Made by a program: the position numbers and the translations under genes. Of a DNA stretch of 64,000 bases, positions 44,711-49,596 are shown one piece after another. The notes under the pieces were generated by a model that was not told the origin of the DNA, did no database searches, and worked only from the letters and a program-made list of their open reading frames with translations. Position 1 is the first letter of the stretch. Each line of letters starts with the position of its first letter. Source of the DNA: Jeotgalibaca dankookensis (GTDB lineage Bacteria; Bacillota; Bacilli; Lactobacillales; Aerococcaceae); assembly GCF_002005405.1 (NCBI RefSeq), contig NZ_CP019728.1:496001-560000 (forward strand), written 5' to 3'.

Positions 44711-44747
44711 ATTTTCAAATTAAGCAGAATAAATTGGGGTGTGGGTC

Positions 44748-46202
44748 ATGAGTATGAGTATCTGGTTAATAATTGTTTCAGCGATTATATTTCTTAACAC
44801 TGTCGTCGCTATTTTTACAGTTTTTTATGAAAATAGGGATGTAACAGCAATCTGGGCCTGGCTATTAACACTCATCATGTTGCCTGGTATTGGATTTGTT
44901 ATTTACTTTTTTATTGGTAAAAAAATGTCATCTAGCCAAATATATGATTTGAATACACAGCAAGTTTTAGGTATGTCAGAATTAGCAGAGTTTCAAAAAG
45001 AGATGTTAGAAGATAGTGAATACAGTGAAATTAGTACGGAAGAAGTTTACAGTGTCCATACCGCGATACTGTTGCTAGAAAGTAATGAATCCATTTTAAC
45101 TCGAGGTAATAAAGTCGAAGTGTTGGTTGATGGAGAAAAGCTATTTGATCAATTTATTGCGGATATTGCCCAAGCGACCCAACACGTTCATATACTGTAC
45201 TATACTTTTCGTTCTGATGGTTTAGGCAGACGGGTGATGGCAGCTTTAGAAGAAAGAGCCGAAGCAGGTGTTGAAGTTTTAGTAATTTATGATGCATTAG
45301 GTTCTCGAACAATCGATAGGGATTTCTTTGATCGCTTAGAAGAAAAAGGCGGAAAAGCACGGGTGTTTTTCGGATCCAAAATACCAATTGTAAATTTCCG
45401 AATGAACTACCGCAATCACAGAAAAATTTTAGTTGTAGATGGGAAAATTGGTTATATGGGTGGGTTTAATATAGGAGATGAATACCTCGGTTTAGGTCCT
45501 TTAGGAAATTGGCGTGACACCCACTTGAGAATTCAAGGAAATGCAGTACTTAGCCTACAAAACAGGTTTTTTATAGATTGGAATGCTGTTGTATCCAATG
45601 AGGAAAAGGTCAAATACGAAGAACATTATTTTCCTATTGCAAAAAAAGTCGGTGAAACAGCCATGCAGATTGTAGCGAGCGGACCTGAGAATGATGTCCA
45701 AGCTATTAAAATGGGATTCATTAAAATGATTAGCCAAGCTAAGCATTCTGTTTATATCCAAACACCTTATTTTATACCAGATATGAGTGTTTACGAAGTT
45801 ATTAAAATTGCTGCTTTATCAGGTGTCGAAGTAAATATTATGATACCCAATAAACCGGATCATCCATTCGTATACCGTGCGACGGAGTATTTTGCAAAGG
45901 ATATATTAGATTCCGGGGCAAATGTTTATACGTATGATAAAGGTTTTTTTCATTCTAAAGTGATGGTGATTGATAATGAAGTGGCTTCAGTTGGTTCTGC
46001 TAACATGGATGTCAGAAGTTTTCGTCTCAATTTTGAAATTAATTCATTTATTTATGATACAGAAGTTGCGAGTGAACTAGCGAGTCATTTTAATAACGAT
46101 ATAAAAAATAGTACGAAGCTCGATTTAGAGTATTTTATGAATCAGTCTAAATGGCGTAAGTTTAAGCAGCATTTTTCGCGCTTACTATCTCCTATACTAT
46201 AA
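44748..46202 (+). CDS. cls: Cardiolipin synthase
   Basis: Phospholipase D-type membrane enzyme that joins two phosphatidylglycerols into cardiolipin. The product is 484 residues. Two N-terminal membrane helices (about 3-25 and 35-55) precede two HKD motifs, NHRKILVVDG (first) and HSKVMVIDNEVASVGSANMD (second). ATG at 44748 follows GGGGTG by six bases; the longer GTG at 44739 overlaps that site. Monocistronic, terminated by a hairpin shared with the convergent YolD-like gene. Confidence 0.95.
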   Translation: MSMSIWLIIVSAIIFLNTVVAIFTVFYENRDVTAIWAWLLTLIMLPGIGFVIYFFIGKKMSSSQIYDLNTQQVLGMSELAEFQKEMLEDSEYSEISTEEVYSVHTAILLLESNESILTRGNKVEVLVDGEKLFDQFIADIAQATQHVHILYYTFRSDGLGRRVMAALEERAEAGVEVLVIYDALGSRTIDRDFFDRLEEKGGKARVFFGSKIPIVNFRMNYRNHRKILVVDGKIGYMGGFNIGDEYLGLGPLGNWRDTHLRIQGNAVLSLQNRFFIDWNAVVSNEEKVKYEEHYFPIAKKVGETAMQIVASGPENDVQAIKMGFIKMISQAKHSVYIQTPYFIPDMSVYEVIKIAALSGVEVNIMIPNKPDHPFVYRATEYFAKDILDSGANVYTYDKGFFHSKVMVIDNEVASVGSANMDVRSFRLNFEINSFIYDTEVASELASHFNNDIKNSTKLDLEYFMNQSKWRKFKQHFSRLLSPIL

Positions 46203-46250: not shown

Positions 46251-46601
46251 CTAAACTTCAGCCAATTGAATAGCTAAAAGTTGCTCAATGCTAAGAATAT
46301 AAGTAATATTAGGATTATTAGTTTCAAAGACAATTTGTCTATTTTCATTTACAAGAGAACGAAAAATGCCTTTAAAAGTTTTTCGAGTGTAGGATCCATT
46401 GGCTCGTTTAAATTCAATAGTTGTATAGACTTTAAGTTGATGTTTTGATGCTTGGTTGGCAAAGCGAATAATCTGATACAAAGGCATGATTGAGTCGATT
46501 AATTCTGGTTGAATAGAGTGGACCTTCTTTTGTTGTTCTCTTGTTGAGCGAGTGAACTGCTTGGTTACGGGGCGGAAGTGACGACTATGATTATTTTCCA
46601 T
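46251..46601 (-). CDS. YolD-like family protein, SOS-regulated
   Basis: Cytoplasmic protein of 116 residues resembling the YolD family, which is often encoded beside Y-family DNA polymerases (UmuC/YqjW) and may be a UmuD analogue. Pattern: basic N-terminus HFRPVTKQFTRSTREQQKK, then a beta-rich core (KVYTTIEFKRANGSYTRKTFKG and NRQIVFETNN) ending IEQLLAIQLAEV. ATG at 46601 follows GGAGGAAA; an upstream in-frame start at 46637 would sit in the promoter. It stands alone without a polymerase gene. A perfect SOS palindrome overlaps its promoter. Family assignment is fairly but not fully secure. Confidence 0.75.
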   Translation of the reverse strand: MENNHSRHFRPVTKQFTRSTREQQKKVHSIQPELIDSIMPLYQIIRFANQASKHQLKVYTTIEFKRANGSYTRKTFKGIFRSLVNENRQIVFETNNPNITYILSIEQLLAIQLAEV

Positions 46602-46635
46602 ACTATTTCCTCCGAACGTTTGTTTGTATATAACC

Positions 46636-46663
46636 ATTATAGAACATATGTTCTATAATGCAA
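46636..46663 (-). promoter_or_regulatory. Promoter of the YolD-like gene with a perfect 24-bp LexA palindrome
   Basis: ATTATAGAACAT followed by its exact reverse complement (46636-46659). The centre GAACATATGTTC is the ideal Gram-positive LexA box. On the minus strand TATAAT (46641-46636) is the -10 and TTGCAT (46663-46658) the -35 with a 16-base spacer, so LexA would block polymerase. Symmetry also creates a plus-strand TATAAT (46654-46659). Confidence 0.85.
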
Positions 46664-46776: not shown

Positions 46777-46821
46777 AGGAATGTAGCATAAAAACCAGAT
46801 AAAAAAATGGAGGTGGTATAT

Positions 46822-47128
46822 TTGAATATGATATCTGAAGTCAAGAAAATAGAAGAAGAAGCAAAACAGCTAGAAAAATCTTATGATGAGAAACTTCTTG
46901 AGATGGATAGAAATGCCGACTCCAGAATTTCGGAGATGAGAGAAAATATTGAAAGCGATCTAGAAGTTTTTCAAATGACTGAAAAACAAAGTCGTGAGAA
47001 AAAGCTTGACGAGATGAGAGCTTCACTACTTGCGGAAACAAACCAGGAAAAAGAAAACCTTCATAACCTGTTCCGCAACAAAAAAAACGAGCTTGTCGAT
47101 ATTGTAATTGAAGAGGTGATGAAACAGT

Positions 47129-47142
<14 letters not shown>
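46822..47142 (+). CDS. ntpF: V-type ATPase subunit G/H-like peripheral stalk protein
   Basis: Coiled-coil protein of 106 residues, charged throughout (EEEAKQLEKSYDEKLLEMDR), likely the peripheral-stalk partner of subunit E in a V-type ATPase, equivalent to E. hirae NtpF by position. TTG at 46822 is chosen since GGAGG (46809-46813) is eight bases away; ATG at 46828 is the alternative. It overlaps the next gene by 14 bases. First gene of a nine-gene operon ending at 55321. Confidence 0.85.

Positions 47143-49596
<2,454 letters not shown>

Follow-up and report, generated by a model that had tools for sequence, protein, structure and literature searches.

The window analysed here (the whole stretch of DNA, 64,000 nucleotides) falls within the 2.1-Mb genome of Jeotgalibaca dankookensis and contains a gene for a small protein that lies alone, as the initial annotation had described it, between a gene for a PLD-domain protein and the start of a V-ATPase operon (Table 1). 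The extent first considered for the gene has to be shortened, as the longer open reading frame with its start at 46637 would cross the -10 element and a second LexA-like box. The ATG at 46601 is the likelier start; it is preceded by GGAGG, and a start with ME or MQ is common to the relatives.

Table 1. Features of the locus and of the umuC region of the same genome
Feature	Position	Strand	Remarks
Stand-alone YolD-core protein gene, 116 aa	46254..46601, stop codon to 46251	-	ORF and model
Parts of the protein	residues 1-36; 41-53; between 57 and 113		low-confidence N-tail; helix; five strands (model)
-10 element TATAAT	46636..46641	-	
-35 element TTGCAT	46658..46663	-	spacer 16
LexA box 1, GAACATATGTTC	46642..46653	.	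between -35 and -10
Perfect palindrome of 26 bp	46635..46660	.	around box 1; outer arms unconserved in genus
LexA-like box 2, AAACAAACGTTC on gene strand	46614..46625	.	just before ribosome-binding site
PLD-domain protein, cardiolipin-synthase-like	44739..46202	+	conserved neighbour
V-ATPase operon start (ntpF-like, ntpI)	46807..49093	+	conserved neighbours; Pfam match above cut-off for ntpI only
umuC-like gene and overlapping downstream YolD P0002	L025:2764-4622 = G000:C1:1926763-1928621		SOS-boxed

The palindrome that had been noted at 46636-46659 is indeed perfect, and its perfection extends by one base pair on either side; it is the sole perfect palindrome of at least 24 bp within the window. 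The LexA core ascribed to it is present, and so is the overlap with the -10, as TATAAT is found inside the palindrome on both strands. The second box, which was overlooked in the initial annotation, follows 28 bp downstream of the first and would lie at about +5 to +16, with the start site inferred from the -10. Five other Jeotgalibaca genomes keep GAACNNNNGTTC, the gene-side TATAAT and box 2, the latter thus being present in all six genomes compared. The outer arms of the palindrome are not conserved in these five genomes and are peculiar to the host species, and hence the opposite-strand -10 is likewise unconserved. By count alone, the LexA box at this locus is unremarkable, and single boxes prove little in this genome: GAACATATGTTC with up to two mismatches occurs once in the window against 3.7 expected occurrences, and genome-wide there are 24 GAACNNNNGTTC sites, with the reversed control giving 16. 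The box carries weight because the palindrome is exact and long, sits in the promoter, and is conserved. A chance palindrome is ruled out by the conservation of the boxes in the genus and by the shuffle control of upstream regions described below. With a LexA box that lies in the promoter and is conserved in relatives, the gene is, at the sequence level, a putative member of the LexA regulon. Some of the genomic GAACNNNNGTTC sites precede genes that by eye were named uvrA-like and recA-like. The site GAACGCTGGTTC occurs three times (L016, L020 and G000:C1:1822787); the copies at L016 and L020 share their nearby bases and lie inside a 434-aa open reading frame that perhaps encodes a transposase.

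What kind of protein does the gene encode? The initial annotation had called it YolD-like. Two studies propose, in their available text, YolD/YqjX (PF08863) as the counterpart of UmuD for Pol V-like polymerases in Gram-positive bacteria (PMC6511836, PMC12926913), and the more recent of them models the N-terminal arm of YqjX/YolD as the contact with PolY (PMC12926913, 2026). This role is unsettled, and the accessible part of PMC13335488 mentions, as unpublished data, that a PolY2-YqjX interaction was undetected. The expected match to PF08863 did not materialize, neither for the protein at E values up to 10 nor genome-wide at E <= 0.001, and among 62 family members a single one matches weakly (E 0.012), which rules out an ordinary PF08863 gene. 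The HMM also misses the genome's own umuC-linked YolD, P0002. Pfam gave no match of any kind for the 116-aa protein, and thus also none to the peptidase S24 domain of UmuD; PHROGs and NCBIfam returned weak, unrelated matches, nothing in NCBIfam being convincing. Comparing the profile of the 62 members with that of 12 Lactobacillales YolDs, hhalign returned a probability of 96.3, an E value of 1.7e-9 and a score of 54.6 over 79 columns, while the best of 100 column shuffles reached 14.0. This match is confined to the C-terminal part of YolD, as the C-terminal half scored 54.4 and the N-terminal half alone 7.0, and the wider family profile directly detects umuC-linked YolDs. The arm motif, defined as [DY]R, 2-4 residues and K[WYF], occurs in none of the 62 members and in 11 of the 12 YolDs, the twelfth (L231) having been translated from a start that falls within the motif. 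The YolD-like assignment thus holds for the SH3-like C-terminal half and fails for the PF08863 match and the arm.

In a tree of 78 cores, 15 of 16 YolDs are found on one side of a branch with a support of 96/97, and the sixteenth, the long-branched L232, groups among the stand-alone rows. The stand-alone label needs two changes on this tree, and a single change suffices in only 2% of bootstrap trees. Without four extra YolDs, a single stand-alone clade is compatible with the data (p-AU 0.47), which is not a proof of such a clade. Taken together, the sequence comparisons delineate a distinct, conserved and armless family that is homologous to the C-terminal core of YolD.

All six Jeotgalibaca genomes have the gene between the PLD-domain gene and the V-ATPase operon. 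A profile of the six genus members detected it in 48 of the 76 genomes of the host's GTDB family (f1), and a profile of 41 members matched 90 of the 395 Lactobacillales genomes; the carriers G000, G034, G098 and G183 have a second match that is spurious or unexamined, with the one of G098 adjoining a umuC match. The wider profile matched in 17 of the 18 genomes drawn from the GTDB family f2 (15 already matched by the 41-member profile, plus G112 and G133), and with this profile no stand-alone copy was recognised in four f3, three f7 and 29 f8 genomes, the search covering 79 chosen genomes, many of them picked for the tandem pattern described below, with some weak matches left unread. The gene thus occurs in several families of the order, and the names used for f1, f2, f6 and f9 are inferred ones. 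In 78 of 82 distinct member loci, the surroundings include RNase J, the PLD-domain gene and/or ntpF/ntpI; the other four are two f2 and two f9 loci. The initial annotation had considered that a polymerase partner might stand beside the gene in relatives. None does, as a umuC or dinB match was found in none of the 82 loci (about 4 kb to either side, some cut by contig ends), and a loss of such a neighbor in the host only is thereby ruled out. In four f9 loci (L201, L206, L210, L215), the gene is next to or near a gmk-like (guanylate-kinase-like) gene and not the V-ATPase operon. In f8, weak profile matches (L258, L260-L263, L278, L280) belong to another protein group that shares a segment like SDSSQK(L/F)LA(A/S)F; tandem boxes are absent in the seven loci read, and the tandem pattern occurs somewhere in 22 of the 29 f8 genomes (read from the table). 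A phage or plasmid origin of the gene found no support in narrow searches: phages were queried with one f2 member, plasmids with one f9 member, and viral contigs with A1 as well as one f2 member, each time without a match.

The double box is conserved in the family. Two boxes with at most two mismatches in total and with starts 25-35 bp apart were sought up to 250 bp upstream of 98 profile hits, a set from which the loci L234-L263, G002 and six further f1 genomes are absent. Such tandems are present at 89 of the 98 hits, with 27 and 28 bp being the commonest spacings, and in one of 9800 mononucleotide-shuffled upstream regions. Three of the failing hits have looser pairs and count as paired only under a loosened test (G025, where the hit runs into the leader; G040, with a pair 27 bp apart but farther upstream; and G016, with a pair 36 bp apart), four are umuC-linked YolDs with the arm and without the pair (L274, L275, L277, L279), and the remaining two are f8 hits of the other protein group (L278, L280). 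In a further locus set, the pair was present at all 24 non-f8 loci listed, among which G040 repeats a genome of the 98-hit set and G222 a motif-first locus, with L251 left out. Pairs are absent upstream of the neighboring genes rnjA (0/18), the PLD gene (0/29) and ntpI (0/53). Upstream of ntpF they occur in 7 of 18 cases, because this gene shares the divergent box-bearing region, and in some genomes ntpF may be LexA-controlled, too.

The tandem pattern alone is found in 153 of the 395 genomes, compared to three for the reversed control (read from the table). When the search started from the motif, the next gene was by eye a family member at 18 of 20 pattern places that had been picked, among those listed, outside the hits of the 41-member profile. 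The weakest of these is L216, which was counted by eye and has no MP motif. At two f3 loci, L217 and L218, the tandem LexA boxes precede a different protein of 66-72 aa with hydrophobic stretches, possibly an SOS membrane effector. In G390, these boxes lie about 0.5 kb from the LexA domain match. In G018, the pattern is present, the gene is undetected and the LexA match is weak.

An AlphaFold2 model computed with three sequences has 73 of 116 residues at pLDDT >= 90, arranged as a helix followed by five strands, and residues 1-36 are mostly below 50. VIA-align ranked WYL domains (Z 8.2-9.2) at the top, together with designed SH3 barrels of small size, with Z values of 9.2 for BrxR, 9.0 for PafBC, 8.5 for CapW, 8.2 for DriD and near 7.5 for Hfq, all of which are near the values of 7-9 that are common for models without a clear match. 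Such rows are to be expected, since YolD is placed in the WYL superfamily in the available text of PMC4012209. Foldseek against the PDB had nothing at E <= 0.001 (all E >= 0.01), a sequence search of solved structures nothing at E <= 1, and the viral fold library nothing at E <= 0.001.

The initial annotation had also asked for LexA and for a Y-family polymerase elsewhere in the genome, and both are encoded. The polymerase gene is a umuC at C1:1926791 with a LexA box of its own, GAACGTATGTTC, and its end is overlapped by the gene for the YolD P0002, which has the full arm. This is the conventional polymerase/YolD pair of the host genome, and its existence rules out that the stand-alone gene is the relocated sole YolD partner of the polymerase.

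In one alternative, the protein is a trans-acting subunit or modulator of the UmuC-like polymerase; as a YolD devoid of the arm, it would compete or pair with the genuine YolD on UmuC and thereby tune mutagenesis. The core is homologous to that of umuC-linked YolDs, and in the host both genes or operons have LexA boxes. The co-occurrence of the genes was determined in 72 genomes drawn from f1, with cut-offs of E <= 2.4e-18 for LexA and E <= 1e-60 for UmuC. LexA is matched in 62 of 63 carriers and in none of nine non-carriers (best E 6.1e-6; Fisher p 1e-10, kinship ignored), the exceptional carrier being G028 (92% complete) with a weak LexA match (E 6.6e-5). UmuC is matched in 57 of the 63 carriers, as the alternative would have it, and also in four of the nine non-carriers (Fisher p 0.003, kinship ignored). 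Kinship inflates all counts, and the nine non-carriers represent four genera. Six f1 carriers have no UmuC match (G008, G009, G010, G016, G017, G031); G009 and G016 are less than 90% complete, but the other four are at least 95% complete, and at least one f6 carrier (G087) also has no match at this cut-off. Conversely, G032, G042, G043 and G044 have UmuC, no convincing LexA and no gene. Within f1, the gene thus follows LexA more closely than UmuC. Outside f1 its link to LexA is loose, as LexA is matched in 384 of the 395 Lactobacillales genomes (above the cut-off in 365), but the gene in 90. Moreover, all 62 members are devoid of the arm that PMC12926913, in its available text, models as the PolY contact. 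The proposal that the protein acts in trans on a polymerase is therefore weakened by the missing arm and by the closer tie to LexA, and we regard a UmuC modulator as rather unlikely. Nevertheless, a contact between the polymerase and the YolD core itself is conceivable, and with it some role together with UmuC.

A second alternative, for which we see still less probability, is an SOS cell-cycle brake that replaces YneA/SosA and that would be kept tightly repressed because its product halts growth; it overlaps as a special case with the explanation that we prefer. The double operator suggests such a tight repression, and no yneA-like gene was seen between the host's own lexA (L026:1670-2707), the only lexA locus inspected, and the next, divergent gene, which we take to be YneF-like. 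However, unlike in SosA, neither the model nor visual inspection of the sequence reveals a membrane segment, the low-confidence N-terminal tail being a coil that is polar by eye, and Pfam offers no match at all. Least probable appears a sensor in which the free WYL/Sm-like barrel binds ssDNA, RNA or nucleotides that result from damage, which again overlaps with the preferred explanation: the ssDNA-bound WYL proteins DriD and CapW as well as PafBC and Hfq are among the nearest folds, but at the unspecific Z values given above, and no column of the 62-row alignment that is at least 70% filled is at least 60% basic, and therefore nucleic-acid binding is not favored.

The preferred explanation, which we hold to be probable, is that the protein is an undescribed member of the LexA regulon, a free YolD/WYL-type barrel that acts in trans and is not an obligate polymerase subunit. 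Comparing genomes and upstream regions shows that the gene is tied to LexA within f1, stands apart from polymerase genes, and has a conserved, putative double operator of LexA type. Mechanistically, LexA would keep the gene off by binding to two operators, one between -35 and -10 and the other over the first transcribed bases, and the RecA-driven cleavage of LexA upon DNA damage would free both. The induced protein, a predicted SH3-like (WYL-superfamily) barrel with a probably disordered N-terminal tail, could then serve as a small, trans-acting binding module for a partner that takes part in the damage response. Candidates are RecA, the clamp, a replicative polymerase, DinB, or any partner that the YolD core contacts. 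As the arm, the modelled grip on the polymerase, is missing, the protein probably has another job in this response, and as its contact with the partner would differ from the arm-in-polymerase contact modelled for YolD, it would not be an obligate subunit of UmuC. The original observation of palindrome, gene and setting is thus confirmed in part, and its interpretation is partly supported.

For a more far-reaching view, the arguments appear to us evenly balanced: the armless YolD barrel could be a widespread, unnamed member of the LexA regulon in Aerococcaceae-, Carnobacteriaceae-, Vagococcaceae- and Lactobacillaceae-like bacteria (inferred family names) that has separated from polymerase-bound YolDs and functions under a two-operator lock as an SOS effector of its own, without dependence on translesion synthesis. 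A natural armless core that is present even where UmuC is undetected would mean that evolution has separated the two halves of YolD, and through the family the function of the core itself can be tested. With it, the SOS response of lactic-acid-type bacteria also gains a conserved and apparently strictly controlled gene.

How does this family relate to known systems? The main text of the open-access literature contains, in the parts available, no armless stand-alone YolD family; the gene might be among the 13 LexA operons that PMC3616900 gives for Lactobacillaceae. With YolD/YqjX, as far as the accessible descriptions go, the family shares the homologous SH3-like core at the C-terminus, the LexA boxes and the small size. 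In contrast to YolD/YqjX, it is devoid of the N-terminal arm, has a polymerase gene close by in none of 82 loci, possesses two putative LexA operators and escapes detection by PF08863. It is also found next to a regular umuC-YolD pair in the gene complement of this host, as well as in genomes without detected UmuC. The N-arm-only and N-arm-fusion variants in the available text of PMC12926913 are partial YolDs as well, but they keep the arm and have lost or replaced the core, and the family described here is the converse. The yolD of S. aureus is likewise SOS-controlled and away from umuC (PMC6511836, PMC11442139, as far as their text is available), but there the one yolD is assumed to serve that genome's own UmuC, whereas here a umuC-linked YolD exists, too; this distinction is based on the published description. 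The WYL domains of BrxR, PafC, CapW and DriD, finally, may resemble the family in predicted fold, but they reside in longer regulator chains, most of them of 266-330 residues, whereas here the barrel is a free protein of 116 aa.
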